From assembly GCF_000280905.1 (NCBI RefSeq), contig NZ_ALAP01000015.1:124001-188000 (forward strand): a DNA stretch of 64,000 nt, given 5' to 3'. Both the position numbers and the translations under genes were made by a program. This stretch comes from Streptomyces sp. AA1529 (GTDB lineage Bacteria; Actinomycetota; Actinomycetes; Streptomycetales; Streptomycetaceae). Below the pieces are notes generated by a model. The model was not told the DNA's origin, did not search any database, and worked only from the letters and a program-made list of their open reading frames with translations. Below are positions 5,221 to 19,255 of the stretch, in pieces (the first letter of the stretch is position 1; every line of letters begins with the position of its first letter).

Positions 5221-5262
5221 AAACGCCCTGTGACTATCACGATGATGAGTCACAGGGCGTTT
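5221..5262 (-). terminator. Original tRNA-Arg terminator, now separated from the gene
   Basis: A perfect 15-bp inverted repeat: AAACGCCCTGTGACT at 5221-5235 pairs with 5248-5262 across a 12-nt loop. It sits just beyond the 3' fragment of tRNA-Arg left at this junction, so it was probably the native terminator of that tRNA before integration. All but one base of its right arm lies inside the 76-bp attachment repeat. Integration therefore moved a copy of that arm to the intact tRNA at 19184-19255 and left the complete hairpin here. Confidence 0.7.
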
Positions 5263-5324
5263 CGGCACTTCGTTCAAAGTACCCCCGGCAGGATTCGAAC
5301 CTGCGCACACGGCTCCGGAGGCCG
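5249..5324. repeat. Left attachment site with tRNA-Arg 3' fragment
   Basis: A 76-bp direct repeat, identical to 19153-19228. It contains 45 nt of the tRNA-Arg 3' half (T-arm, acceptor 3' strand and half of the anticodon arm, minus-strand sense) plus the right arm of the tRNA terminator. Sequence diverges abruptly at 5325, where the intact tRNA copy continues into its D-arm. This end therefore holds only a tRNA remnant, not a gene. Confidence 0.92.
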
Positions 5325-5471
5325 ACGTGCTTCTCTGCGTCTGTGCAGGTCGGCGCGCTGATCGGCTTGGGCTGGGGGTGCGTCACGCCGCGTATACGCC
5401 GTGGGCGGTCTGTAAGCGGCGACTGCGAAGCGATACCGTCGACATGATCTATGCGGCGGGGAGGCGCGAGC

Positions 5472-6371
5472 ATGACGGCGGAGTTCACTGCTGAGTCGGC
5501 GGGCGCGGTGCTGGGGGAGGCGTGCCGCTCAGCGGGGCTCGACCCTACGGGCGCGGAACTGCTGCGCCTGGGCTCCAACGCGGTGTACCGGCTGTCGACC
5601 GCGCCTGTGGTCGTCCGGATCGCGCGGGACACCGATGCCCTGGACGAGATGTCGCGGGCGGTCGGCGTTGCTCGCTGGCTGGAGACGGAGGACTTCCCCG
5701 CCACGCGCGCGCTGGGCGACGTGGAACAGCCGGCCGTCATCGGTGGCCGCGTCGTCACGTACTGGGTGAACCTTCAGGACGAAGTCGAGTACGCCCGCCT
5801 GGACGAGCTGGCCGACCTGCTGAAGCGGCTGCACTGGCTGGAAGAGCCGAAGTCGCTCGGGCTGCCGCATTACGACCCGTTCGGCAAGGTGTGGGACTCG
5901 CTGCGTGGTCTCGGTAGCGCTGTCTCGGACGGGGACCGGTCGTTCCTGGAGGAGCGGGCGGGAGAGCTGAACAAGGCGTATGACCGCTTGGACTTCGTGC
6001 TGCCGTTCGGCATGATCCACGGGGACGCCAACGTCGGGAACTGCCTCCGCGACCGGACCGGCCGCGCTGTCCTCATCGACCTCGACGGCTTTGCCCTGGC
6101 ACCTCGTGAGTGGGACCTGGTCCTCACCTCGCTGTACTACGAGCGCTTCGGCTGGCACACGCGGACCGAGTACGAGTCCTTCGTGCACCACTACGGGTTC
6201 GACCTGATGAACTGGCCGGGCTACCCGGTGCTGGCTGACGTGCGTGAGCTGATGATGACGCTGTGGCTCGGGCACCAGGTGACGACGAACAGCAGGGCGG
6301 CGGAAGAGTTCCCCCGACGGGTCGACAGCATCCGGACCGGAGGTAGCCGGAAGGATTGGCAGCCGTACTGA
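5472..6371 (+). CDS. Aminoglycoside phosphotransferase-fold kinase
   Basis: A protein of 299 aa with the APH/choline-kinase fold signatures. The catalytic loop is HGDANVGN (H183, D185, N190), and a metal-binding IDLDG follows (D203, D205). An N-terminal lobe with the VVVRIAR strand precedes them. ATG 5472 has a GGGGAGG ribosome site 8 nt upstream; the ATG at 5451 does not. The substrate cannot be predicted, since the fold covers antibiotic, homoserine, choline and fructosamine kinases. The gene is element cargo and converges with the regulator ending at 6372 with no gap. Confidence 0.8.
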   Translation: MTAEFTAESAGAVLGEACRSAGLDPTGAELLRLGSNAVYRLSTAPVVVRIARDTDALDEMSRAVGVARWLETEDFPATRALGDVEQPAVIGGRVVTYWVNLQDEVEYARLDELADLLKRLHWLEEPKSLGLPHYDPFGKVWDSLRGLGSAVSDGDRSFLEERAGELNKAYDRLDFVLPFGMIHGDANVGNCLRDRTGRAVLIDLDGFALAPREWDLVLTSLYYERFGWHTRTEYESFVHHYGFDLMNWPGYPVLADVRELMMTLWLGHQVTTNSRAAEEFPRRVDSIRTGGSRKDWQPY

Positions 6372-7799
6372 TCAGCGGTTTCCGTCGCGCTGTCCCTCGG
6401 CGGCGGCCCACAGCCGGTGTCCATGCGCTTGCTCGCGGAAGGAACGGACAGCGGCTGTCTCTCCCACTGCCAACAGGCCGTCCCGGAACTCCTTGAGGTA
6501 GCTGACACAGCGTGCTGACTTGAGCTGTTCGCCAAGATCAAGAGCGTCGAGGGCTACGCGGCATGCCTCCTCGGGATCTCCGGCCCGAAGGTGGGCGTCG
6601 GCAAGGACCATGGTGGCGAAGAAGTCGCTCCGCACGTGGCTGCCGCTCATGGCGTTCTCAGCATGGGCCACGGCTCGGCGGGCGCTGTTCACGTCGCGGA
6701 AGCAGTGGGCGGCCTCGGCTGCCAGCTCGGCCTCGTCGAAGTAGGTGATCCACTCCGGCTCGTCGCTGCTGTTTCGGCTCTCCAGTGCCTTGGTGGCCTC
6801 GCCGAGTGCTTGTTCGCACGCGCGGATGTCACCCGTACGGGCAAGGGCACGGGCCTCCATCGCGTGGAACTGCGCCATCAGGGTCGGTGTCGCAACGCCA
6901 GAGATGCCCATACGCGCGGCTCGGGCGAGTGTCGCGGCCTCGGTGTAGTTGCCCAGGAACGTGGCCTGGTGGCTCATCGCGGACAGTATGCTCCCCGCCA
7001 GTCGGCGGTCGTCGCCGTCCTGGGCGAGACGGAGCGCCTGGAGGAAGTACCGCTGGGCAAGGCCGTGGTGACACGCGTCGTAGGACATCCAACCGGCCAG
7101 CAGTGTGGACTCCGCGACTGTGGAGAACAGCGCCCGGCCGACAGCTTCCGTGTACTGGCCCGTGAGCAGGGGTGCCACATCTTGGCTGAGGTACTGGACC
7201 ACGGACTGTCGCGCATGCGCGCCGCCGAACCGGTCGTCCATCTCGGCGAACATGTCGCTGGTCGTCTTGATCATCGCTACGTCGGCCAGCCCCACCCGTG
7301 CGCCATCCGTACGGGCGGCCGATGGGAACGAAGGGTCCGGTGCAACCAACCAGCGCAAGGACGCTTCGCTCCACGCGTGCTGTGACGCCTCGGAGAGCAA
7401 CAGCGGCTCGTAACCGTGCAAGTCAGCGCGCCACAACTGGCTGACGGTCTGAAACGCTTCCTCCGGTGTCGGGGGATAACGCGTCTCCAGCAAGCGGGAG
7501 TCCTGGCCGGCGGCGGTACTCAGCCCCAACTCGGCCGGAGCGATGTCGAGCGCCTCGCAGATGAGTGCCCCGTAGAACTCGTCGGGCGTGCTGTGCCCGT
7601 TCTCCCAGGTTGCGATGCGGCGCTTCACGCTGTCGTCGGACGGGAGTGCCTTCCCGTGGCGCTTCGCGCACCGTCGCATCTCGCTGACGAGCCGGAGCTG
7701 TCCCCAGCCGCGGGCCTTGCGAGCCGCGCGGAGGAGTTCCCCAAAGGACCGGTTCGCTTCCGTTCTGATCGCCTCCCCGCGCTTCCGACCAGATGCGAT
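6372..7799 (-). CDS. XRE-family regulator with helical C-terminal domain, unusual start
   Basis: An N-terminal XRE helix-turn-helix is followed by about 380 residues of helical, TPR-like sequence, a common layout for Streptomyces regulators. The DNA-binding domain clearly begins upstream of the first Met codon (7677-7679): the frame reads on through FGELLRAARKARGWGQLRLV. Yet no ATG, GTG, TTG or CTG occurs between that Met and the in-frame stop at 7821-7823. An ATC at 7797-7799 follows a GAGAGG sequence and is the start used here; ATT at 7818-7820 is an alternative. Using Met 7679 would delete half of the HTH. The gene is divergent from the cargo unit beginning at 8021. Confidence 0.7.
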   Translation of the reverse strand: MASGRKRGEAIRTEANRSFGELLRAARKARGWGQLRLVSEMRRCAKRHGKALPSDDSVKRRIATWENGHSTPDEFYGALICEALDIAPAELGLSTAAGQDSRLLETRYPPTPEEAFQTVSQLWRADLHGYEPLLLSEASQHAWSEASLRWLVAPDPSFPSAARTDGARVGLADVAMIKTTSDMFAEMDDRFGGAHARQSVVQYLSQDVAPLLTGQYTEAVGRALFSTVAESTLLAGWMSYDACHHGLAQRYFLQALRLAQDGDDRRLAGSILSAMSHQATFLGNYTEAATLARAARMGISGVATPTLMAQFHAMEARALARTGDIRACEQALGEATKALESRNSSDEPEWITYFDEAELAAEAAHCFRDVNSARRAVAHAENAMSGSHVRSDFFATMVLADAHLRAGDPEEACRVALDALDLGEQLKSARCVSYLKEFRDGLLAVGETAAVRSFREQAHGHRLWAAAEGQRDGNR

Positions 7800-7911
7800 G
7801 CCCTGCTTACCTCTCCGAATCTACGGAATGTGATGCCGCGCTGTCTGCTCGTAATGCGGACCTCTTGCCTCCCTCGGTAGATGATCCAGGGTGACGCGGG
7901 GTTGGAGGGCA

Positions 7912-7938
7912 CGTCATCCCCCGTCACCTCTCGTCATC
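7912..7938. promoter_or_regulatory. Three helically phased CGTCAYC repeats, candidate operator
   Basis: CGTCATC, CGTCACC and CGTCATC begin at 7912, 7922 and 7932, exactly 10 bp apart and so on one face of the helix. An inverted CGTCAC copy lies at 7891-7896. The array is in the divergent promoter region between the XRE regulator and the gene at 8021, the usual place for an autoregulatory operator. That it binds the regulator is inferred. Confidence 0.45.
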
Positions 7939-8020
7939 TGCCCAGCTCAGGGCGGTGCGGCCGAAGGTGGTTCCCACGCGGCCAAACGGCTGGGACTTGG
8001 ACCAACTGAGGTGATTCGAC

Positions 8021-8566
8021 GTGCAGATGATGACAAGAAGGGGAGTTCAGTGGATCTCCTGCGCAGCCGATGACCCGGACGAGTGCCGGGAAGCCTGGCT
8101 GGTTGACCCTCGACGCCCCTACGCGTTTCCGGCTGGACGCTTCTTCGACGTCGTGGTGGTCGGACAGCGGGTCGGGCTGGAGACGTTCGACCAACTCCAG
8201 CGCCACGGTATGCCGCTCGGGCCCGTGATGGCGGACCGCGCCTCCGGTCAAGTCGGCTTCTTCGTCCCCACCTGGGCGCGCGAGCCGTTCGGCCGCATGG
8301 TCCGGCAGGAGTCGGCGGACGAAGCACCTGAGTACCGCTATCTGGGTGAGGGCTCGGTAGTGGTCGTCCCCGGGCCGATGCCGCTGACGGGGGATCGCTA
8401 CATCTGGCTCCGGGCTCCGATGCGTCGACCGGAAGCGTCCCCCTCGCGCATTGCGGCGCTGGCCGCGATGTTCGTCGCCGCCTCGTCTGTCGTGGCTCGG
8501 GCGGACAGGTACGGCCGCGAGCAGACAGCCGCCTCCGCGGAAGGTGAGGCCACCCATGCCGGCTGA
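8021..8566 (+). CDS. Conserved actinomycete protein, distantly primase/polymerase-like
   Basis: A protein of 181 aa with a segment PRRPYAFPAGRFFDVVVV near residue 30 and a later VVVPGPMPLTGDRYIWLR. From memory this pattern belongs to a Streptomyces family that resembles the N-terminal bifunctional primase/polymerase (Prim-Pol) domain, but I see no clear catalytic triad, so function is left open. GTG 8021 has a GAGGTG ribosome site 7 nt upstream. The stop overlaps the next gene by 11 bp, so the two are probably co-translated. Confidence 0.65.
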   Translation: MQMMTRRGVQWISCAADDPDECREAWLVDPRRPYAFPAGRFFDVVVVGQRVGLETFDQLQRHGMPLGPVMADRASGQVGFFVPTWAREPFGRMVRQESADEAPEYRYLGEGSVVVVPGPMPLTGDRYIWLRAPMRRPEASPSRIAALAAMFVAASSVVARADRYGREQTAASAEGEATHAG

Positions 8567-8858
8567 CCACGAACACAGTGGCGACAGCGCGAGCTGGTCC
8601 CCGCTCGACAGCGAGGAGTGGTACGCGGCGCGGGACGCGGTCGCCGGGCTCCGGGACGTACTGATCGCTGCTGGGATGGAACGCGACTTCCCGTACCTGC
8701 GCGCCGACCTGAACGCCTTCGGACACGGGCTGATCGAACTCGGCCGCATCTCGCCGGAGACGGCCGAACGGCTCACGGAGCTGCTGCGGCGGGCACTGGA
8801 GAGCACGTACGAGGTGCCGGGCACGGGCACGAACGGCCGTCAGCAGCGGAACGACTGA
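8556..8858 (+). CDS. Small protein, first of a paralogous pair
   Basis: A protein of 100 aa with no recognised domain. Its central part (AGMERDFPYLRADLNAFGHG) aligns with the next gene product, and both continue into a segment spaced as G-x-I/V-x-P-E/D-x-A followed by a Leu-rich helix. ATG 8556 overlaps the upstream stop codon. It is soluble, mostly helical and has no signal peptide. Function is unknown. It belongs to the 8021-9205 cargo unit. Confidence 0.6.
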   Translation: MPADHEHSGDSASWSPLDSEEWYAARDAVAGLRDVLIAAGMERDFPYLRADLNAFGHGLIELGRISPETAERLTELLRRALESTYEVPGTGTNGRQQRND

Positions 8859-8881
8859 GCAGAGCGGATGAGGTGGACGAC

Positions 8882-9205
8882 GTGACGGACCCCAAGGGGG
8901 TATGCGCGCGGCCTGCGGATTGCCTCACTCCCGGTGTGGCCTACGTACGCGGCTGGGCGGAAGGCAAGCGCGCTGCTGACGGCCTCGCGGAGATGCTGCG
9001 CGCGGTCGGCCTGGAGGTGGACCTGCCGGGGCTCAAGGCGGACGTGAACGTTTTCGGAGACGGCGTCGTCACCCTCGGCACGGTACGTCCGGACGCGGCG
9101 CGGCTGCTGGCCGACTTGCTGACGACTGGGCTGACGGCGGAGATCGCGTGGCAGGAAGACGGCCGCCCGGGACTCGGAGGCGCTGCTGACAGTTCAGCGG
9201 CATAG
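8882..9205 (+). CDS. Small protein, second of a paralogous pair
   Basis: A protein of 107 aa. The region VGLEVDLPGLKADVNVFGDG matches the upstream protein position by position (G-x-E-x-D-x-P-x-L-x-A-D-x-N), so the two genes arose by tandem duplication. GTG 8882 is chosen because a GAGG lies 8 nt upstream; GTG 8873 is an alternative. The 23-bp gap to its paralogue suggests one transcript. Function is unknown. The pair may form a heterodimer, which is a guess. Confidence 0.6.
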   Translation: MTDPKGVCARPADCLTPGVAYVRGWAEGKRAADGLAEMLRAVGLEVDLPGLKADVNVFGDGVVTLGTVRPDAARLLADLLTTGLTAEIAWQEDGRPGLGGAADSSAA

Positions 9206-9238: not shown

Positions 9239-9305
9239 AGGTGGCTCGTCGTCGGCCGGGACCGGCGCCCCAGCGCCGCAGCCCGAGCCGAACGACGAGC
9301 CACCT
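9239..9305. terminator. Large inverted repeat after the small-protein unit
   Basis: Perfect 14-bp arms, AGGTGGCTCGTCGT at 9239-9252 and its complement at 9292-9305, flank a 39-nt loop that is itself GC-rich and partly self-complementary. It begins 33 bp after the stop at 9205 and precedes the lower-GC NACHT region, so a terminator or insulating structure is likely. There is no U-run. Confidence 0.55.
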
Positions 9306-9689
9306 TCATGTCCGTTGAGCTGTGGGCAAGGAACAAGGGGCAAGAACGGTTGAGTGTTGGCTGAGCTGGGTGTGCGCGGGGTCGTGGGTGACGGCGAATC
9401 AGCATGGTGTCCTCTTTGCTCGCTGGCCAATGGCGTTCTGGCGCCAGAACTGTTGCCTACCTGCTCCAGGCAGGTCGGGTATCGACCGTTGGTCGCCTTC
9501 GCTCGACTTCTGCCCCAGGTCCGTCGGGGGACAGCAGTACTCGGCAGGCGCCGATCAGTAGTTCCTCCAAGGAACCCCAGGGGATCTGCCTGATACCTAC
9601 CTCTGGCGGCAGACTGCGACATAGAGTGTCTGCTTGGTGACGGGCCACTACCAGGATGTGGGCCGACGAACGATCTTCTGAGGAGAATT
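9306..9689. other. Leader region of the NACHT gene
   Basis: This 384-bp stretch shows falling GC content and no convincing gene. Short open frames (for example 9404-9640) have no ribosome site or recognisable protein features. It probably holds the NACHT promoter and 5' leader. A GAGGAG ribosome site is present at about 9679-9684, just before ATG 9690. Confidence 0.4.
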
Positions 9690-12515
9690 ATGGATCCTAT
9701 ATCAGCGGCATTGAGTAGAACTGTGGGCTCAGTGCTGGGCACCCTGGCGGGCGGAGCAATGAAGCAGGGACGGCAGGGCATCAGACACCGACTTGCTCTG
9801 AGCAAAGCGAAAAAGACGCTTAGCCTCCCTTGTAAGGCTGATGCTCTAGGACGGGTGGACAACCTTACGCCCGCATTCCGTGAGTGCATCGTGCAATTCA
9901 TCGGCTCCAGCGAGTTCGAACAGTTTACATTACAGCTTGTGATTGCAGTTTCTTCAAAAAAGAAGAAAATGATCGAGGCGCTACGGAAAACGTTGAGGGA
10001 ATCCCTGCGACTATACAGGACGATTCCTGAGGATGGGGTTGATTGTATTGCTACAGCCTTGTTCGATGATCTGCATCAATCTATCCACGCTTCACTAATT
10101 GCACCGGAAGGACGGAATGGATTTAATCCAATATCTGCGAAGATCGCATCCGCTCAAGCGGCAGCCGCCTTGCGCAATTGTGAAATTCTAGCGCGCATTG
10201 AAGACCTCCACGAATATGACGAGTTCGCTCGGACCTTCAATCGTCAAGTTTCCCTTGTCGACAGCAAGGTCAGGCCACCACAGATCGACACTGGTCGCAA
10301 AATTCCCATTGATCGAATTTACGTGCAGGCTACGCTGGTAGAAGAAGGCGAAAGAGGGGAGGAGACCACGGGAGCCGCTCTTCCCCCCAAGGAGATATTC
10401 GGAATATTCCCCAGGGTTGCCATCTTGGGCGATCCGGGGGGAGGTAAATCTACACTGGCCTCCAAACTATGTGTGGATTTCGCTCGGGGTAAGGTGCGCG
10501 GCTCGGCCAGGGTATCCTTTAAGATCATCGTGCGAGATTTTGGGGTACACTTCAAATCTTCGAAGATGTCAGTTGTTGAATATATTGAAAAAATGTGTGC
10601 TGCCGACTATTCGACTCCGACTCCAGACGGATGTGTCGAATATCTGCTTCTGAACTCGCGTGCCGCAGTCGTATTTGATGGCCTGGATGAGCTGACTGAT
10701 ACATCGTTGCGGCAAGATATGATAAGGGCTGTCGAAGCTTTCTGCCTCGCGTACCCTAGTGCATGGGTTATGGCTACGTCCCGCAAAGTTGGATACGACT
10801 TGGCTCCCTTAGACAGGGATATTTTCGACACCCTGGAGCTGGGAGCATTTTCCCATGACCAGGAGCGAACTTACATCAAAAAATGGTTCAACTCCATGAA
10901 GTCGGGGAGTCAGCATGAGAGAGCATCTCTGGCGGATGGCTTCCTCAATGAGCTCAGTCACGCAAATGAACTGAGTCGCAACCCACTCATGCTTGGGCTC
11001 ATGTGTGCGCTCTACCGGGGAGCCGGGTTCATTCCTCGAAACCGTCCCGAGCTCTACCGCCGGTGCTCGGAATTCTTGTTTGAACGCTGGGACTCCTCTC
11101 GGGGAATTCTGGTCGAGAAGCCATTTGAACGCGGAATCCAGTTCGCCATGTTTGCGCTCGCGTTAAGCATGTTGAAGAACTCTGAGGGGGGTGGACTTAC
11201 CGAAAAGCGACTCATTCAGTTCGCAACGGCTCACCTCCATGGTCGGCATTATGAGGACTTTGATTCTGCTCAGGATGCCGCTCGAAGTTTTGTGAAGTAT
11301 TGTCGTGGGCGCGCATGGGTTCTTACTGATGTGGGGACCGATGCTTCGGGGAATGATCTGTATTCCTTCACGCATCGAACATTTTTGGAATACTTTGCAG
11401 CCCGACAGTTGGTGCGTGAGTGTAGTGATGTCGAATCGCTCGCGTCAGCTATCTATCCGAAGTTGAAGGTGCAAGAGTGGGACGTCGTCTCACAGTTGGC
11501 TATTCAGACTCTAGATGAGCGCTTGGAGGATGCTTCCAATGGCGCTGTAGCTGCCTTGATTGAATTGGCAGAGAACGAGCAAGACCTAGACGCTCAAAAA
11601 TCAATCGCGAGCTTCTGCGTGCGGTCTGTGGAGTTTATGGATTTGCGTCCTTCCGTGTTGCGCTCAATTGTAGATTTTTACTTGCGTACCATCACTCCTG
11701 CGGTGAACGCGGGGAAGGTGGACTATTTCTATGTGGGCGCTGCTGATGCTCTACTTAAGTGTCCTCGCGAGCTTCGGGATGTTGTGGTGGACCAAATGCG
11801 TCGCACTGCGCAGTTGTATCCCGAAGATAAGAACATCCTTGCTCTCGTAGTTAGTCTTGGCCAGCGAATTCCTTGGGATGGTGACTACTGGATAGCGGCA
11901 GACCAAGAGACTATTGAGATGTTCTCCGACCGAATGGATCGGCTAGATGACCAGGAGGTATGGTTTGATGTAATCCAATACAGGTACGGGAGGGTGCCCC
12001 TTCAGCATCTTCTTGACTCACATGGAGTCGGAGCTTTGTTCAATTCACAATTCTGGCCGCTAGGGGATGCGCTCGGGAGGAACCTATTCTCGGATTTCGT
12101 ATATGGGCCAGAGGGAGCCGGAAGGGTAAGATTCGAGGATAGAGGTAAGGTGATCCGAGCGATCTTGAATTCACCTCGGCCTTTGTGTCACACCCTGGGG
12201 TCACATAGATGGATTCACGATGATAGGGATGCGCTCCCGGAGGATGAAGAGCTTCTATTCCTTGTACTTGTGAATTATATGCTCGGTTTGGATTTTCTGG
12301 GGAACGAGACATTTGGGTCGGTTAAGCGTCCTCTCGCAGGGCCTCTGGGTCGGCTATACCAGATGATTCGTCGAGCCCGTAAGGGAGAAGTAAGTTCGGA
12401 TTCCTTGTCCGCCCAGCTGGATATGTTGCCCGCGGCTCAGGTTGATTTCATCACCAGTTGGGCAGCAGAGGGGTTCAAGCTCGTTGAGCGGCATGATCGC
12501 AGCAGTCAGACTTGA
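9690..12515 (+). CDS. NACHT-domain STAND NTPase, candidate anti-phage defence protein
   Basis: A protein of 941 aa in three parts. Residues 1-235 are a helical N-terminal region of the type fused to bacterial NACHT proteins. The NACHT NTPase follows, with Walker A GDPGGGKST (247-255) and Walker B VVFDGLDEL (327-335). NACHT-specific motifs come next: SRNPLMLGLMCALY and, at 558-571, YSFTHRTFLEYFAA. Residues about 600-941 are helical, without obvious LRR or WD repeats, and would be the sensor. Bacterial NACHT proteins include demonstrated anti-phage genes that resemble animal NLRs. Base composition is far below the neighbours (25 of 60 bases G or C in 9901-9960). Leu-TTA codons at 9930 and 11163 could make translation depend on bldA. 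Start ATG 9690 has a GAGGAG site. Confidence 0.88.
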   Translation: MDPISAALSRTVGSVLGTLAGGAMKQGRQGIRHRLALSKAKKTLSLPCKADALGRVDNLTPAFRECIVQFIGSSEFEQFTLQLVIAVSSKKKKMIEALRKTLRESLRLYRTIPEDGVDCIATALFDDLHQSIHASLIAPEGRNGFNPISAKIASAQAAAALRNCEILARIEDLHEYDEFARTFNRQVSLVDSKVRPPQIDTGRKIPIDRIYVQATLVEEGERGEETTGAALPPKEIFGIFPRVAILGDPGGGKSTLASKLCVDFARGKVRGSARVSFKIIVRDFGVHFKSSKMSVVEYIEKMCAADYSTPTPDGCVEYLLLNSRAAVVFDGLDELTDTSLRQDMIRAVEAFCLAYPSAWVMATSRKVGYDLAPLDRDIFDTLELGAFSHDQERTYIKKWFNSMKSGSQHERASLADGFLNELSHANELSRNPLMLGLMCALYRGAGFIPRNRPELYRRCSEFLFERWDSSRGILVEKPFERGIQFAMFALALSMLKNSEGGGLTEKRLIQFATAHLHGRHYEDFDSAQDAARSFVKYCRGRAWVLTDVGTDASGNDLYSFTHRTFLEYFAARQLVRECSDVESLASAIYPKLKVQEWDVVSQLAIQTLDERLEDASNGAVAALIELAENEQDLDAQKSIASFCVRSVEFMDLRPSVLRSIVDFYLRTITPAVNAGKVDYFYVGAADALLKCPRELRDVVVDQMRRTAQLYPEDKNILALVVSLGQRIPWDGDYWIAADQETIEMFSDRMDRLDDQEVWFDVIQYRYGRVPLQHLLDSHGVGALFNSQFWPLGDALGRNLFSDFVYGPEGAGRVRFEDRGKVIRAILNSPRPLCHTLGSHRWIHDDRDALPEDEELLFLVLVNYMLGLDFLGNETFGSVKRPLAGPLGRLYQMIRRARKGEVSSDSLSAQLDMLPAAQVDFITSWAAEGFKLVERHDRSSQT

Positions 12516-12654
12516 GTGCGGCGGAGTCGCTTTGAGCTGCGAGATTACTGCCTAACGCCGCAGAGTTACCGCTCCAGTGGTCGCTGTTCCGGCGGTTCGT
12601 GGAGAGGGCCGGGAGATGGCCGAGGAGCAGGCGGCGGACCTATGCCGCCGGCGT

Positions 12655-12676: not shown

Positions 12677-12711
12677 CTTGAAGACGTGGAGAAAGTCTGA
12701 GCCACATCCGC

Positions 12712-13467
12712 TCAGAGGGGGTACGTCAGCTCCAAGTCATTGCCGGGCAGGTGTAGCTCCTCTAGGGCTAGCGGTTGGCCGTCAGAGTCCCGTGTGACCC
12801 GGAGGAGTTGGAGGAGCGGGACGCCATCCGGTAGGCGCAGCGCTTCCGCTTGGTCTGGCAGGGGCATGCGGGTGCGGACGCGCTCGGTGAAGTGGAGTTC
12901 GTGGCCTAGGGCCGACAGGGCTTCGTAGAGCTCCGGTGCGGGAGGCGGGGGCTCTTCTTCGTATCTGGTGCTGACCAGTACGGAGAACGGCACGTACGTG
13001 CGGTGGAGCTGGCGGAGTGGGCTGCCCTCGGCCGTCTGGAGCACGTCGTACGTGAACAGTGGCTCGCCCGGGGGCACGCGGAGTAGGTCCGCCAGTGCGA
13101 CCGGGGCGTCCGTGCGCGTGGCTGTGGGTTCTTCCGCGTTGGTCCAGCGGATGCCGTCGGCCTCGACGTAGCGGCCGTTCGGCTCGCGGCGTACTCCGCG
13201 CGGGCGGGTGAGACTGGGTCGGCTGTGGGGGGAGCGGACGAAGCCGCCGCGGCCGGCCATGACTTCGACCAGCCCGGAAGCTCGTAGCTCTGCAATGCCC
13301 TGGCGCACGGTCGGACGCGTGACGCTGAACTGCTTCGCCAGGGTCTCCTCTGACGGCAGCGGCTGGCCCGACGGGTAGGTGCCGTTCATGATGCCAGCAC
13401 GCAAGTAGTCCGCGATCTGGCGGTACTTGGGCTGTTTCTGCTGATCGCTGGCCCTCTGCGATGGCAT
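12712..13467 (-). CDS. GntR/HutC-family repressor (KorSA-like)
   Basis: A protein of 251 aa. An N-terminal GntR winged helix (PKYRQIADYLRAGIMNGTY, then PSEETLAKQFSVTRPTVRQG) is followed by a UTRA-type effector domain (about 95-245) containing FTYDVLQTAEGSPLRQ. AICEs such as pSAM2 carry a GntR repressor of this kind (KorSA) that controls the pra and tra genes. I chose ATG 13467, with GGGGAG just upstream, over the TTG at 13491. Two copies of a 17-bp palindrome (13560-13620) lie between this gene and the transfer operon and are the likely operators. Confidence 0.88.
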   Translation of the reverse strand: MPSQRASDQQKQPKYRQIADYLRAGIMNGTYPSGQPLPSEETLAKQFSVTRPTVRQGIAELRASGLVEVMAGRGGFVRSPHSRPSLTRPRGVRREPNGRYVEADGIRWTNAEEPTATRTDAPVALADLLRVPPGEPLFTYDVLQTAEGSPLRQLHRTYVPFSVLVSTRYEEEPPPPAPELYEALSALGHELHFTERVRTRMPLPDQAEALRLPDGVPLLQLLRVTRDSDGQPLALEELHLPGNDLELTYPL

Positions 13468-13559
13468 CTGACTCCCCGAATCGCTGGTCAAGCCTCTGCT
13501 GTCTCGATCCGGAGACGAGTCGTCTCCGAACGGGTACAGCGTCTCTCATCCCAACACGG

Positions 13560-13620
13560 TTGACAACCCGTACTACGGGTGGTCACTCTGGACTCTCCGC
13601 AACCCGTACTACGGGTTGTC
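13560..13620. promoter_or_regulatory. Twin palindromic operators of the GntR repressor
   Basis: AACCCGTACTACGGGTT at 13601-13617 is a perfect palindrome of 8-bp arms around a central C. The copy starting at 13565 differs by one base. The copies start 36 bp apart, and the outermost half-sites extend to GACAACCCGTA on both sides. TTGACA at 13560-13565 overlaps the first copy. The sites lie between the divergent repressor and the Pra/Tra operon, so both are probably under repressor control. Confidence 0.75.
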
Positions 13621-13671
13621 AAGCAATCCGGAGGAAGGGCCTTCGGGTGCGACAGACAAGGAGTTCAGAGA

Positions 13672-14049
13672 GTGGTAGCTCTACCGATCGATACGGCGAA
13701 GTTCACGGGGATCATCTGCGCCGTGGCCCCTACGCCGCGCATCGCCAACCGGGAGACCGGACAGCTTCGCGTCGACCGGGACACCGGCCAGACCGTGTAT
13801 CAGGTGGGCCTCTGCCTGATGTCCGGGAGGTCGGCCGATGTCGTCACGGTGAACGTGCCGGGGGAGCCGTCGGGCGTGCAGAACGGGGTGCCCGTTCAGG
13901 TCCGGGACCTGGTGGCCACGCCGTGGGAGAACGAGGGGCGGCACGGGGTCTCGTTCCGGGCGACCGAGATCAAGCCCCTGACGGCTCCGGCAGCCTCGTC
14001 CGCGTCCGGCTCGGCGGCGACGGCGTCCGGGAAGGGGGCCGGACAGTGA
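13672..14049 (+). CDS. SCO3933/Pra-like regulatory protein of the AICE
   Basis: A protein of 125 aa containing NRETGQLRVDRDTGQTVYQV and, later, PWENEGRHGVSFRA. From memory these are the marks of the SCO3933 family, found next to transfer genes in AICEs and related to Pra, the activator of replication, integration and excision in pSAM2. GTG 13672 has an AAGGAG ribosome site 8 nt upstream; the open frame extends upstream through the operator region, which argues against an earlier start. It is the first gene of the element's long operon and overlaps the next gene by 4 bp (GTGA). The activator role is inferred from context. Confidence 0.75.
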   Translation: MVALPIDTAKFTGIICAVAPTPRIANRETGQLRVDRDTGQTVYQVGLCLMSGRSADVVTVNVPGEPSGVQNGVPVQVRDLVATPWENEGRHGVSFRATEIKPLTAPAASSASGSAATASGKGAGQ

Positions 14050-15431
14050 TCGCCCTGGCCTCCGCGAATTCTGCGGGGTCCGCCTCGTCGAGCTGGGTGC
14101 TCGTGGTGGCCGCAGTGCTGGTGTCGGGTCTGCTTCTGGCGGGCCCGGCCCTGCGCCGGCGCTATCCGGTGGCCTGGTGGGTGTGCCTCGGGTTTCCGGT
14201 GGTGTGCATACGGGTCGTGCGGACCTGGCGGCCGTTGATGGCCGGTTGCGGGCTGGCGGTGAGCCGTAAGGCGGCGCTGATGGTCGTCTCCGGGCTCGTC
14301 GGCAACGGTTCCGCTCCGCCACAACCTCGGGTGCCTCACCGTGGACTCATACGGCCGACTCGGGGCGGCTTCTGGTTCCTCGTCCGGCTGCTGCCGGGGC
14401 AGGTGCCGGAGGACTTCGTCAAGGCGGCTCCAGCCATGGCGCACGACTGGGAAGTGCACGCGGTCCGCGTGACGACGTGGAAGCCCGGTCTCGTTCGGGT
14501 GGTGGCCTCGGCCAGTGATCCGCTTAAGGCGCCACAGATACCGAAGCAGCGGGGTGCGGGTCGACTGCTGCGCGTTGCAGTCGGGGCGCTGGAGACCGGT
14601 GCTCAGTGGGTCATCGACCTACGGCAGGTACCGCACTGGCTCATCGTGGGCGCCACTCGTTCCGGCAAGTCGACGCTGATCAATGCCCTCGTCGCGGGCC
14701 TCGCTCGGCAACCTGTCGCGCTGGTCGGCATCGACTGCAAGGGTGGCATGGAACTTTCGCTCTACGGCCCTCGGCTGTCCGCGCTGGCGACCAACCGAAC
14801 ACAAGCGGTCGAGCTGCTCGGCGCGCTGGCCGACCTGACCTTGGACCGGATGACGGTCTGTCGTGCTGCGCGGGTCCGGAACGTCTGGGGGCTGCCGGAG
14901 GACGAACGGCCCGTTCCGATCGTCGTGATCGTGGATGAGCTGGCGGAGCTGTTCCTGGTCGCCAGCCGCAACGAGAAGGAAGAAGCACAGGCGGCGAGTA
15001 CGGCGCTCATCCGGCTGGCGCAACTCGGTGCTGCGCTCGGCGTGTTCCTCGTCGTCGCGGGGCAACGGGTCGGCTCGGATCTCGGACCAGGAGTCACGGC
15101 CCTCCGCGCTCAGCTCGCCGGCCGCGTCTGCCACCGGGTGGCCGACCCCGGTACGGCGGAAATGGCGCTCGGTGACCTCAACCCCGATGCACTGCACGCG
15201 GCGCAGTCGATCACACCCGAACAGGCCGGTACGGCGGTGCTCGCCTCGGCCGACGGCTGGGACCGTGCCCGGTCCCACCTGGTCTCGGAGACGGAAGCGG
15301 AGCGCGTTGCCGCCGAGTATGCGCACCTCACGCCCCACGTGCCGGAGCTGGTCGCAGCAGGGGGAGGAACCTCGGCGGACGACGCTCCCCGCGTGCGGCT
15401 CGAACGACTCGACGGCGAAGAGAACGAGTGA
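14046..15431 (+). CDS. FtsK/SpoIIIE-type conjugative transfer ATPase (TraSA-like)
   Basis: A protein of 461 aa. Two hydrophobic N-terminal segments (about 12-33 and 38-58) anchor it, and an FtsK/HerA motor domain follows. Walker A is GATRSGKST (202-210) and Walker B VVIVDELAELF (D297). Later motifs typical of the family are GVFLVVAGQR and AGRVCHRVADP. In AICEs one such hexameric pump moves double-stranded DNA between mycelial cells. The GTG at 14046 overlaps the upstream stop (GTGA), which indicates translational coupling. The motor domain appears complete. Confidence 0.9.
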   Translation: MIALASANSAGSASSSWVLVVAAVLVSGLLLAGPALRRRYPVAWWVCLGFPVVCIRVVRTWRPLMAGCGLAVSRKAALMVVSGLVGNGSAPPQPRVPHRGLIRPTRGGFWFLVRLLPGQVPEDFVKAAPAMAHDWEVHAVRVTTWKPGLVRVVASASDPLKAPQIPKQRGAGRLLRVAVGALETGAQWVIDLRQVPHWLIVGATRSGKSTLINALVAGLARQPVALVGIDCKGGMELSLYGPRLSALATNRTQAVELLGALADLTLDRMTVCRAARVRNVWGLPEDERPVPIVVIVDELAELFLVASRNEKEEAQAASTALIRLAQLGAALGVFLVVAGQRVGSDLGPGVTALRAQLAGRVCHRVADPGTAEMALGDLNPDALHAAQSITPEQAGTAVLASADGWDRARSHLVSETEAERVAAEYAHLTPHVPELVAAGGGTSADDAPRVRLERLDGEENE

Positions 15432-15658: not shown

Positions 15659-16015
15659 ATGATCTCCATGAAAAACGGCTCCCGACGGGGCGCGAAGTCG
15701 CCAAACCCGACCCCGTCAGGAACCCACTCCATCCGCTACGTCAGCAGTGAAAGGAGCAGTCTCACTTTGTCCACTGCGCATCGATCGCGCAAACCGTCGC
15801 GCCGCCCCTGGTGCGACCTGAAGGACGACGCTCACCTGAAGTGCCAAGGTTCCGAACAGGTGGTCCTGGCCGACCGCGAGGGCGCTGAGCGGCGCGCCTG
15901 CCCTGCGCACGCCGCCTCGCTCTGGCTGACGGACCCGAGTCTGCGCTTCTCCGCGAAGACTCCACCGGAAGCCATCGCCGCAGTGATGCGGCAGGCGTTC
16001 GGGGGTGGCCGATGA
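15659..16015 (+). CDS. Small AICE protein upstream of rep
   Basis: 118 aa from ATG 15659, which has an excellent GGGAGGAG ribosome site 8 nt upstream. The first ~36 residues are Ser/Arg/Lys-rich, and the conserved-looking part starts near an in-frame TTG at 15767, so an 83-aa form is possible. The core has three cysteines and a histidine (WCDLKDD, LKCQ, ACPAHA), which could bind metal. It overlaps the initiator gene by 4 bp (ATGA). Function is unknown; similar small proteins occur before rep in AICEs. Confidence 0.6.
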   Translation: MISMKNGSRRGAKSPNPTPSGTHSIRYVSSERSSLTLSTAHRSRKPSRRPWCDLKDDAHLKCQGSEQVVLADREGAERRACPAHAASLWLTDPSLRFSAKTPPEAIAAVMRQAFGGGR

Positions 16016-17370
16016 CGGAGGCCAGTGAAGCAGTCGCGGCGCTCATCGAGCGCGCAGGGCGGTCGGACTTCGACGGCTGGCGGCGGAGCGTTCTCCGCCT
16101 CGGCGGCTGCACCAACCCCATTCACCTCGTCGGCTCCGCCGCGTACGTGGACGCTGCCACGGGGGCGGCGCTCCACTCGTACACCTCGGAGGCGCTCGGC
16201 GGTCGGCTCCTGGTCGCGTGCGGCAACCGCCGGGCGACGGTCTGTCCGACCTGCGCTCAGCTCTACCGCGCGGACACGTATCAGCTCATCCGGGCCGGGC
16301 TGGTCGGCGGTAAGGCGGTCGCGGAGACGGTGAGCGGGCACCCTCGGGTGTTCGCCACCCTCACCGCTCCGAGCTTCGGTCCCGTGCACTCGCGGCGGGA
16401 GCGGGGCGGCCGAGTGCTGGCCTGCCGTCCGCGGAAGGCGGGGGAGTGCTGCCCTCATGGCGCTCCCGTCGGGTGCCATACCCGTCATGCGGCGGACGAT
16501 CCGCGACTCGGTGAGCCGCTGTGTCCACGCTGCTACGACTATGCCGGCGCCGTGCTCTGGCAGGCGCAATCCGGTGAGCTGTGGCACCGCTTCACGCTCG
16601 AGCTGCGGCGCGTGCTGGCTCGGCGTGCGGGGCTGTCCCGTTCGACGCTGGCGGATGCGGTGCGGCTTTCGTACGCGAAGGTGGCGGAGTACCAGCGGCG
16701 GGGCCTCGTGCACTTCCATGCCGTCGTCCGTCTCGACGGTCCTGACGGGCCGGGGGAGACGCCTCCTCGCTGGGCAACGTCGGGTCTCCTGGCGGACGCC
16801 GTGCGGGAAGCGGTCGGCCGGGTGCGGGTCGTCGCATACGGGGCCGACGTGGTCGGCTCGCGCGTCCTGCGGTTCGGCGGGCAGTTGGACATCCGTGCCG
16901 TTCCGTCGTCCGACTCGGCGGACGGGCTGTCCTCGTCGGCAGTCGCGGGCTATATCGCCAAGTACGCCACCAAGGGTGCCGAGTCGGCCGGGGCCGTCGA
17001 CGGGCGTATCCGGCACGGCAAGGACCTGGCCACGCTGCCCGTGCGGGATCACGTGCTCCGCATGATCGGCACCTGCTGGTGGCTCGGCGCGCTGCCCTCC
17101 TTCGAGGAGCTGAGGTTGCGGCGCTGGGCACACATGCTCGGCTACCGGGGCCACTTCTCGACCAAGTCCCGCCACTACTCCACCACCCTCGGCGCGCTGC
17201 GCTCGGCCCGTGCGGAGCACCGTGCGCGCGAACAGCGGTCCGCGCTGGGCCTGGACGACCGGGACGTGGTCCTCGTCGGCCAGTGGCGGTACGCCGGGCG
17301 CGGCTACAGCCCGGAGGCCGCCCTGCTCGCGGCCTCGGTCCGGGAAGGCGGTGACGGACATGGCGGCTGA
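16012..17370 (+). CDS. RepSA-like rolling-circle replication initiator
   Basis: A protein of 452 aa. The HUH motif is HFHAVVRLD (H234, H236) and the nicking-tyrosine region is YIAKYATK (Y314, Y318). Several Cys pairs before the HUH motif (CPTC, CPRC, CCPHG) look like zinc knuckles. RepSA-type initiators drive rolling-circle replication of excised AICEs. ATG 16012 overlaps the upstream stop, and the 3' end overlaps the excisionase gene by 11 bp, so rep, xis and int look co-translated, as in pSAM2. Confidence 0.9.
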   Translation: MTEASEAVAALIERAGRSDFDGWRRSVLRLGGCTNPIHLVGSAAYVDAATGAALHSYTSEALGGRLLVACGNRRATVCPTCAQLYRADTYQLIRAGLVGGKAVAETVSGHPRVFATLTAPSFGPVHSRRERGGRVLACRPRKAGECCPHGAPVGCHTRHAADDPRLGEPLCPRCYDYAGAVLWQAQSGELWHRFTLELRRVLARRAGLSRSTLADAVRLSYAKVAEYQRRGLVHFHAVVRLDGPDGPGETPPRWATSGLLADAVREAVGRVRVVAYGADVVGSRVLRFGGQLDIRAVPSSDSADGLSSSAVAGYIAKYATKGAESAGAVDGRIRHGKDLATLPVRDHVLRMIGTCWWLGALPSFEELRLRRWAHMLGYRGHFSTKSRHYSTTLGALRSARAEHRAREQRSALGLDDRDVVLVGQWRYAGRGYSPEAALLAASVREGGDGHGG

Positions 17371-17551
17371 TGAGCTGATGACCGTTCCGCAAGTTCTGGC
17401 CGAACTGGGCGGTGTCTCCCGGCGCACCTTCTACCGCTGGCGCGAGGTGGGACGTGGCCCTGCCTCGCTCAAGCTGCCGAACGGTGAGATCCGCGTCTGG
17501 CGCAGTGAATTCACTGCATGGCTCCGGCGTCGTGAGGAGGAGGTCGTATGA
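17360..17551 (+). CDS. Excisionase, MerR-type helix-turn-helix
   Basis: A protein of 63 aa made almost entirely of one winged helix-turn-helix: LMTVPQVLAELGGVSRRTFY, then a WREVGRGP turn and a basic C-terminus. Such proteins are the recombination directionality factors (Xis) of AICEs and bias the integrase toward excision. ATG 17360 overlaps the end of rep; GTG 17351 is an alternative start. The stop overlaps the integrase start by 4 bp (ATGA). Confidence 0.88.
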   Translation: MAADELMTVPQVLAELGGVSRRTFYRWREVGRGPASLKLPNGEIRVWRSEFTAWLRRREEEVV

Positions 17552-18954
17552 AGTCGCAAGACGTGCGGGTCTGGGAGATCCGGCGCAACAAGTCGAGCAA
17601 GCGGCCCTCCTACGAGGTGCGGTGGAAGGTGGCCGGGAAACCGTTCTCGAAGACGTTCCGCACCAAGGCGCTGGCCGACAGCTACCGGGCCGGCCTCGTC
17701 AAGGCGTCTCGGGCAGGGGAAGGGTTCAACACGGAGACCGGCCTGCCGGGCTCCTTGGTCGAAGCGGCCCCTTCCCTCACCTGGTACGAGTTCGCACTGA
17801 AGTACCTCGCGATGAAGTGGCCGCACGCGGCCCCCAACTCGCGCGACAGCATGAACGAGACGCTGACGCTGGTGAGCACGGTCCTCGTGGGCAAGAAGCC
17901 CGGTCGGCCTGCGGACGCGGTGCTGCGCAAGGCGCTGCGGGGCTGGGCGTTCGTGCACGCGTCGAACGAGGACAAGGAAGAACCACCGGCCAAGGTGAGC
18001 AACGCGCTCGCCTGGGTGGCCAAGGCATCGCTGCCGCTTGCCGACCTGAAGAATCCGGCCGTGATGCGCAACGTTCTCAACGCACTCACGCTGAAGCTGG
18101 ACGGGACTCCGGCCGCGCCGGAGACGGTACGGCGCAAGCGTGCGGTGCTGTCCAACGTCCTCCGGTACGCGGTCGAGGTCGCAGAGCTGAACGAGAATCC
18201 GGTGGCGTCCGTGCAGTGGAAGCCGCCGAAGCTCGCCAAAGAGGTGGACCGTCGGGTCGTGATCAATCCTGTACAGGCTCGGGAGCTGCTGACCGCGCTC
18301 TCGTACGTGGGGCTGTACAAGCGGGCGCGGGGGCGTCGGATGGTCGCGCTGTTCGCCTGCATGTACTACGGCGGGCTGCGGCCGGCGGAAGCGGTCGGCC
18401 TCCGTCTCCAGGACTGCGAACTGCCGGAGAAGGGATGGGGGCGGTTCATCCTGCACAAGACGCGTCCCACGGTGGGGAAGCGGTGGACCGGAACCGGCAA
18501 GGTCCATGATCACCGAGGGCTCAAGAATCGTTCGGAGGACGAAGTCCGGCCCGTGCCGGTGCCGCCGCAACTCGTGCGGATCGTCCGCAAGCACCTTGCG
18601 GAGTTCGGCACGGCCGAAGACGGCCGGCTGTTCTTCAACGAGCGGGGCGGTGTCATCGGCTCGTCGTCGTACTCCCGTACCTGGGAGGAAGCGCGCGCCC
18701 TGGCCCTCACCCCGGAACAGGTCGCTTCACCGCTCGCCGGTACGCCGTACGACCTGCGGCACGCGGCGCTGTCCTCCTGGCTGAACGCCGGAGTCGATCC
18801 GGCCGAGGTGGCGGAGCGCGCGGGCAACAGCGTGGACGTACTGCTGACCCGCTACGCGAAGTGCCTCGACGGTCGGCAGCACGTAGCCAACCAACGGATC
18901 GACGCCCTCTGGGAGGACGGTTCCGACACCGAGGATGCGAGCGAGACCGACTGA
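17548..18954 (+). CDS. Tyrosine integrase of the AICE
   Basis: A protein of 468 aa. The first ~85 residues are an arm-binding-type domain (SYEVRWKVAGKPFSKTF), followed by a core-binding helical domain and the catalytic domain. The active site has R278 (GGLRPAEAVGL), R404-H405 in YDLRH and nucleophile Y436 in TRYAKC. The usual first His of the HxxR box is Tyr (Y401), and the late GHS motif reads GNS; both variants are familiar in Streptomyces integrases. It ends about 200 bp from the right attachment site and would act on the tRNA-Arg 3' end. Confidence 0.93.
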   Translation: MKSQDVRVWEIRRNKSSKRPSYEVRWKVAGKPFSKTFRTKALADSYRAGLVKASRAGEGFNTETGLPGSLVEAAPSLTWYEFALKYLAMKWPHAAPNSRDSMNETLTLVSTVLVGKKPGRPADAVLRKALRGWAFVHASNEDKEEPPAKVSNALAWVAKASLPLADLKNPAVMRNVLNALTLKLDGTPAAPETVRRKRAVLSNVLRYAVEVAELNENPVASVQWKPPKLAKEVDRRVVINPVQARELLTALSYVGLYKRARGRRMVALFACMYYGGLRPAEAVGLRLQDCELPEKGWGRFILHKTRPTVGKRWTGTGKVHDHRGLKNRSEDEVRPVPVPPQLVRIVRKHLAEFGTAEDGRLFFNERGGVIGSSSYSRTWEEARALALTPEQVASPLAGTPYDLRHAALSSWLNAGVDPAEVAERAGNSVDVLLTRYAKCLDGRQHVANQRIDALWEDGSDTEDASETD

Positions 18955-19124: not shown

Positions 19125-19166
19125 AAACGCCCCGCAACCAGCATCCAACCTGGTCACAGGGCGTTT
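19125..19166 (-). terminator. Hybrid terminator of the restored tRNA-Arg
   Basis: AAACGCCC at 19125-19132 (element DNA) pairs with GGGCGTTT at 19159-19166 (inside the attachment repeat), and ACCAG at 19137-19141 pairs with CTGGT at 19150-19154. Reading on the minus strand it lies directly 3' of the intact tRNA. The element thus supplies a replacement for the terminator arm that integration removed (compare 5221-5262). Confidence 0.6.
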
Positions 19167-19228
19167 CGGCACTTCGTTCAAAGTACCCCCGGCAGGATTC
19201 GAACCTGCGCACACGGCTCCGGAGGCCG
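19153..19228. repeat. Right attachment site, inside intact tRNA-Arg
   Basis: A 76-bp direct repeat identical to 5249-5324. Here it continues without a break into the tRNA 5' half (19229-19255), so this end restores a full tRNA gene after integration, the normal outcome for tRNA-targeted integrases that carry a copy of the 3' end. Confidence 0.92.
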
Positions 19229-19255
19229 TTGCTCTATCCCCTGAGCTACGGGGGC
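19184..19255 (-). tRNA. tRNA-Arg (anticodon CCG)
   Basis: A complete cloverleaf can be drawn on the minus strand. The acceptor is GCCCCCG with CGGGGGT (a G-U pair at 1-72), the anticodon stem ACGGC/GCCGT encloses the loop CTCCGGA (anticodon CCG), and the T arm is GCAGG-TTCGAAT-CCTGC. The discriminator base is A and CCA is not encoded. A TAGTGT hexamer (minus strand, 19283-19288) upstream is a possible -10 box. The 3' 45 nt come from the integrated element. Confidence 0.95.

Follow-up and report, generated by a model that had tools for sequence, protein, structure and literature searches.

A NACHT-domain STAND protein as candidate immune cargo in the exchange slot of a Streptomyces integrative and conjugative element

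The stretch of 64,000 nucleotides from Streptomyces sp. AA1529 analysed here (the window) contains an actinomycete integrative and conjugative element (AICE), in which an unbroken gene for a NACHT protein of the STAND class (signal transduction ATPases with numerous domains) occupies a slot whose cargo differs between sister elements. The protein is probably a switch directed against phages or other mobile elements, one that would oligomerise in an ATP-driven manner and shut down the host cell. A defence role is likely because the gene sits in a slot with mostly defence-like, interchangeable cargo. An earlier inspection of the letters of the DNA (the sequence-only reading) had proposed a candidate anti-phage gene, and this proposal is strengthened by the sister elements, since 15 of the 20 sister slots tested hold a protein that matches the PADLOC collection of defence models. 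The features on which the argument turns are as follows.

9690..12515, + strand: NACHT STAND protein of 941 residues, from open reading frame (ORF) call, profile and structure model
Domain layout of the 941-residue protein: N-terminal helical region, about 1-210; NACHT domain, about 240-400; winged-helix/ARM region; C-terminal helical-repeat region, about 600-930
9321..12650: exchanged cargo segment; identity to two sisters ends at 9320/9327 and resumes at 12651/12675

The ORF is intact, with 941 codons and no internal stop, and its assignment to the NACHT STAND proteins is borne out by a match to Pfam PF05729 of 48.9 bits, against a curated cut-off of 26.7. Walker A (GDPGGGKST, residues 247-255) and Walker B (VVFDGLDEL, residues 327-335) lie where the sequence-only reading had placed them; the NACHT-specific motif that it put at 558-571 is also present, but the position was wrong, and FTHRTFLEYFAA occupies residues 560-571 in the winged-helix/ARM region. 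In an alignment of 31 relatives Walker A, Walker B (hhhhDGLDEL) and FTHRTFLEYFAA are invariant or nearly so.

The slot was delimited by comparison with two close sister elements, 96% and 91% identical, which came to light when the right half of the element was searched as DNA against 392 Streptomyces genomes. The left flank is 94.3% and 90.5% identical to these sisters up to 9320/9327, and the right flank 95.2% and 91.0% identical from 12651/12675 onward, but between the slot edges the window aligns with neither of them. One sister carries there a GmrSD/Schlafen-type protein with a transposase, the other a Trypco2 protein with a trypsin-tetratricopeptide repeat (TPR) protein, and both genomes are outside the 13 of the 392 in which a relative of the NACHT protein is found at E 1e-60. 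Because the sister elements differ in this segment between matching flanks, the cargo has been exchanged. In a synteny comparison with 24 further stretches and 2 from an earlier set, the slot gap, calculated from projected gene ends, ranges from 3377 to 11064 bp (n = 20, window included), whereas other intervals of the element are nearly constant: 331-354 bp between the NsdA and Prim-Pol genes (n = 21), 291-339 between Prim-Pol and the small orf (n = 21), 551-632 between the GntR and transfer (Tra) genes (n = 20) and 180-202 between the replication (Rep) and integrase genes (n = 20). The Tra-Rep gap is moderately variable (535-936, n = 22), and that between the APH and NsdA genes is 3-51 bp (n = 20) except in two elements, where it is 605 and 950 bp. 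The slot is thus one fixed place between syntenic genes at which the cargo differs among sister elements, which is one of the properties of a defence hotspot.

The PADLOC scan covered 20 of 21 delimited sister slots, with the largest one or two ORFs taken from each; L163 was left out, the right edge is incomplete in L167 and L169 (L and G numbers are our handles for loci and genomes), and the stretches of L148, L151, L158, L159, L166 and L168 contain no left edge. At E 1e-3, seven of the 15 matching slots give strong matches of 389-1374 bits, which comprise a type III Mod protein (L134, 842 bits), type I HsdR (L150, 1374) and HsdM (L154, 624), LmuB of Lamassu (L152, 421), STAND_TPR (L155, 389), PD-Lambda-5_A (L146, 650) and RT_UG23 of the DRT class (L160, 649). 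Partial-length or moderate matches account for L131, L149 and L161 (TIR, and a DUF4062 protein), L162 (Cap12-type TIR), L164 (HNH effector region) and L169 (type II methyltransferase), and weak ones for L156 (1.5e-9) and L157 (1.9e-10). L133, whose left edge was likewise not seen and which was therefore excluded from the slot count, has defence-like cargo as well (MTase_III, 872 bits, and a UvrD-nuclease).

An AlphaFold2 model of the whole protein (predicted local distance difference test score, pLDDT, 79.7; predicted template modelling score, 0.65) has a NACHT/winged-helix core that matches NLRC4 and NLRP3 in a structure search. The N-terminal region modelled alone is all helix (pLDDT 78.9), and among 71 aligned relatives no residue before Phe179 is conserved in 90% or more, so that an enzyme in this region is unlikely. 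In the first 35 residues a GxxxGxxxG pattern is found in 28 of the 89 relatives with a complete N terminus, where shuffling would give 5.1; 32 of 121 proteins had been dropped from this count for a short N terminus. Identity to the eight closest relatives among the matches listed is 70.5% in the NACHT domain, 78.2% in the winged-helix/ARM region, 50.4% in the N-terminal region and 36.6% in the C-terminal region, and this fastest divergence at the C terminus is the pattern that would be expected of a changing sensor. Based on these features, the C-terminal helical repeats may sense a product of the invader, upon which the NACHT/winged-helix core would open and oligomerise, driven by ATP, and the N-terminal helical region would act non-enzymatically to stop the cell, so that the infection aborts. 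A helical N terminus with no conserved catalytic residues, and with GxxxGxxxG in part of the family, points to a non-enzymatic action, of which an action at the membrane is the most likely kind. Membrane disturbance is nevertheless the least secure step of the scheme, and a doubtful one even if the protein does act in defence.

It should be recognized that several results weigh against a defence role or against parts of this scheme. The NACHT protein itself matches none of the models of PADLOC-DB 2.0.0 at E 1e-3, its best match (E 0.021) covering the P-loop only, and EruA (NCBIfam NF058535), the sole antiphage NACHT match in NCBIfam, scores 31.9 bits against a cut-off of 1000. The N-terminal region searched alone against solved structures has no clear fold match; the sequence-only reading, which could name no match for either terminal region, is upheld here, for the C-terminal region by its search as part of the whole model. 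The GxxxGxxxG excess is suggestive only, because the relatives are not independent and 61 of the 89 lack the motif, and the helix that bears it is only moderately hydrophobic. Five of the 20 slots (L132, L147, L153, L165 and L167) give no PADLOC match. The control for the count of 15 of 20 is thin, consisting of five right-frame backbone proteins, of which one (the Tra ATPase) also matches, and the count covers the one or two largest ORFs per slot.

One alternative is that the same STAND switch is aimed not at phages but at competing plasmids or AICEs, or at keeping out another copy of its own element, and this we hold to be a minority possibility. The carrier of the gene is a conjugative element, and the restriction systems of the sister slots target any incoming DNA, but the slot companions include anti-phage types (LmuB, PD-Lambda-5, TIR and DRT), and from sequence the two classes of target, phage and plasmid or AICE, are indistinguishable. 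A regulator of transcription or development with no part in defence is improbable. STAND regulators occur in Streptomyces, and an NsdA-family regulator is also carried by the element, but Pfam detects no DNA-binding domain in the NACHT protein even at E 10, the slot is shared with restriction and abortive-infection-type genes, and the protein is rare, full-length relatives being found in 5 of the 392 Streptomyces genomes, its own included. An equally small probability is given to cargo of a selfish or addiction kind, by which the element is stabilised, or to a decaying passenger. Passages of PMC9513070 describe frequent pseudogenes, and also toxin-antitoxin pairs, in AICE cargo; here, however, the ORF is unbroken and its ATPase motifs are conserved, and its length is like that of the closest relatives among the matches listed (927-959 residues). 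That the cargo segment holds one protein and no visible partner gene can be counted for this reading, but the same segment offers no antitoxin-like partner.

Within the defence reading, the N-terminal region may be an adaptor, bringing in an effector from the host or chromosome, rather than a membrane-acting domain, a possibility of some substance that still falls short of an even chance. A helical region with no conserved catalytic residues fits a homotypic adaptor equally well, but the cargo is a single gene, to which the 3.3-kb segment offers no partner.

NLR-like (nucleotide-binding, leucine-rich-repeat) bacterial immune proteins and variable AICE cargo are already known. The bacterial NACHT (bNACHT) antiphage proteins have a central NACHT domain, a C-terminal sensor and an N-terminal effector, as set out in passages of PMC12169576, and the window protein has this tripartite layout, to judge by the domain order of the model and the faster C-terminal divergence; the likeness is one of architecture only, and the N-terminal region here differs in containing no recognised nuclease or other enzyme. 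The predicted NACHT and winged-helix core fold is shared with the animal NLRs NLRC4, NLRP3 and NOD2, but leucine-rich repeats and CARD/PYD domains were not identified in the window protein, and identity in the structural alignments is 14-20%. STAND_TPR (PADLOC PDLC01173) is likewise a STAND protein in the same slot, that of the sister L155, but it is a distinct protein and the window protein does not match PDLC01173. The slot resembles the hotspots of P2-like phages and P4-like satellites, where, in passages of PMC9122126, a fixed site of a mobile element receives interchangeable antiviral genes, whereas the carrier here is an AICE and an invariant hairpin stands at the slot edge.

The AICEs of a Streptomyces population include restriction-modification and AIPR systems among their cargo and have similar int/rep/tra modules with differing cargo, but neither a hairpin nor one conserved slot for defence genes is described in the main-text passages of that study (PMC9513070). 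Plasmids and prophages only were covered in a survey of defence in actinobacteria, as given in passages of PMC10482375, and diDNase genes are placed in AICEs, near defence genes, in passages of PMC11706625. No account of the slot or the hairpin was found in the literature, mainly open-licence papers, subscription papers being largely outside the scope of the search. There are few experimental studies of Streptomyces defence genes, and a defined slot of a widespread AICE family, filled by restriction systems in one strain and by an NLR-like gene in another, offers a direct route to untested immune genes of this genus. Any slot gene of unknown function becomes a defence candidate, and the constant edges ease the collection and cloning of cargo genes.

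The AICE itself is confirmed by a perfect 76-bp repeat at tRNA-Arg(CCG), together with RepSA, an FtsK/SpoIIIE-type ATPase, a tyrosine integrase and GntR-UTRA and Prim-Pol proteins; about 14 kb separate the repeats, and by its gene content it is a pSAM2-like AICE. AICEs transfer double-stranded DNA by means of an FtsK-like ATPase. Apart from the cargo and the hairpin described below, the element comprises the following.

5249..5324: left attachment repeat, 76 bp, perfect copy of 19153-19228
5451..6371, + strand: APH-family phosphotransferase (PF01636), backbone, syntenic in sisters
6372..7679, - strand: NsdA-family TPR-like regulator (NF053720, 395 bits), backbone, syntenic in sisters
8021..8566, + strand: protein with Prim-Pol N-terminal domain (PF09250), backbone, syntenic in sisters
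8873..9205, + strand: small orf (orf9205), backbone, left side of the slot, start approximate
12712..13491, - strand: GntR-UTRA regulator, which we take to be KorSA-like, backbone, right side of the slot
13461..15431, + strand: ORF for the FtsK/SpoIIIE-type transfer ATPase, whose actual start is probably further downstream
16012..17370, + strand: RepSA replication initiator (PF20199, 538 bits)
17360..17551, + strand: small Xis-like helix-turn-helix orf, recognised by eye from the sequence and not by profile scan
17548..18954, + strand: tyrosine integrase
19153..19228: right attachment repeat, overlapping the 3' end of the tRNA gene
19183..19255, - strand: tRNA-Arg(CCG), the integration target

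The sequence-only reading had taken the NACHT gene as AICE cargo, which stands, and had placed it between transfer genes and other cargo; the neighbouring phosphotransferase, NsdA-type and Prim-Pol genes, however, are not further cargo but are syntenic in the sister elements. The region 5451-8566, with the APH-family, Prim-Pol and NsdA-family genes, the last for a regulator of developmental type, is the conserved left half of this AICE family. The ORFs at 7934-8830 and 12782-13549, which were scanned as proteins, proved to be in the wrong frames. Near the 3' end of the GntR gene, at about 12677-12705, a short stretch of the type GCCTTGA..ACGTAGAGAAA..TCTGAGCC recurs at the right slot edge of the sisters. 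In two of the slots with no PADLOC match, L132 and L167, trypsin-like proteins are present, with a Trypco2 neighbour in L132; the genes for these trypsin-TPR proteins are candidate defence genes, and a pair of trypsin-like and Trypco2 proteins is named among predicted conflict systems in passages of PMC7159879.

Of 7996 candidates scored in the protein search, 850 passed E 1e-3, and the best 120 of these are listed. Among these listed matches the closest relatives, at least eight in number and seven of them from Streptomyces, are 53-58% identical, and the next tier is at 36-42%. A relative of 560 residues (P0030) was excluded from the first alignment (A1), and the second (A2) consists of the 71 selected rows. 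Across 11 stretches from the 12 other genomes with a match at E 1e-60, Tra or Rep of the backbone type is present in G062 and G136, and extension of the stretch of G025 revealed RepSA 12 kb from the relative. With 18 handles (17 distinct genomes, as G342 and G400 are the same), RepSA was found less than 15 kb from a NACHT relative in five genomes (G062, G025, G394, G397 and G398); a binomial value for this proximity was not used, because the handles had been picked in part for AICE genes already seen. No AICE genes were seen in the stretch scanned around the relative in G209.

In Streptomyces olivaceus (L009, 12998-13606) a relative of 58% identity stops roughly 190 bp away from a GntR gene, the two being convergent as in the window; the Tra gene beside it is only distant kin of that of the window, and the NACHT-GntR neighbourhood may thus recur in another AICE family. 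The relative in Streptomyces aculeolatus (L087) lies in two pieces in different frames and is probably broken. The genome of strain AA1529 itself has two adjacent NACHT genes outside the AICE, on contig C30 at about 211103-215477 (L002 and L003), each about 28% identical to the window protein over part of its length.

The base composition had been read as a sign of recent transfer. The count of 25 G or C in the 60 bases of 9901-9960 is correct, and the NACHT gene has a G+C content of 0.519 (0.538 at third codon positions) in a window of 0.706, but all ten relatives checked are also GC-poor genes (0.51-0.56) in GC-rich surroundings (0.65-0.70). Low GC is therefore a lasting trait of the family and no proof of recent transfer. 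The TTA codons reported at 9930 and 11163 are present, along with a third in-frame one at 10809; the relatives have from 0 to 8, and the bldA control that had been suggested is weak because five of the ten have none.

The left edge of the slot is marked by a hairpin, in the interval that separates the small orf from the exchanged cargo.

9239..9305, + strand: hairpin marking the left slot edge, with a 29-base core at 9256-9284

As single-stranded DNA it has a folding energy of -36.2 kcal/mol, with a z of -10 relative to shuffles, and it has no match in Rfam. In the genome of strain AA1529 the 29-base core has a single copy, even when three mismatches are tolerated; of 121 Streptomyces genomes searched, 14 contain it, in each case exactly, and the reversed control gives none. 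With up to four mismatches allowed it is present in 25 of 29 element stretches, in one exact copy each; it was not found in L133, L148, L151 and L159, and these four stretches lack the left-hand backbone genes as well. The arms vary in sequence yet stay complementary, the longest uninterrupted stem averaging 11.9 bp, as against 6.3 for shuffled arms, although by this count four of the 25 (L134, L150, L153 and L158) are at the shuffle level. Ten stretches of other AICE types that bear NACHT relatives did not yield the hairpin. In the closest sisters identity stops 14-21 bp past it.

The plain reading of these observations is a single-strand origin for rolling-circle replication, and the bold one a site of cargo exchange or recombination, which would account for the shuffling of defence genes. 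In its fullest form, the AICE family would be a carrier of defence cassettes, in which the invariant hairpin serves as a single-stranded recombination site that swaps immune modules during single-stranded replication; we consider this a long shot. If true, it would amount to an integron-like device for immunity in Streptomyces, with modules ranging from restriction systems to NLR-like switches. In L169 (genome G079) the hairpin lies in the opposite orientation to the backbone, and its perfect stem, of 24 bp, is the longest.
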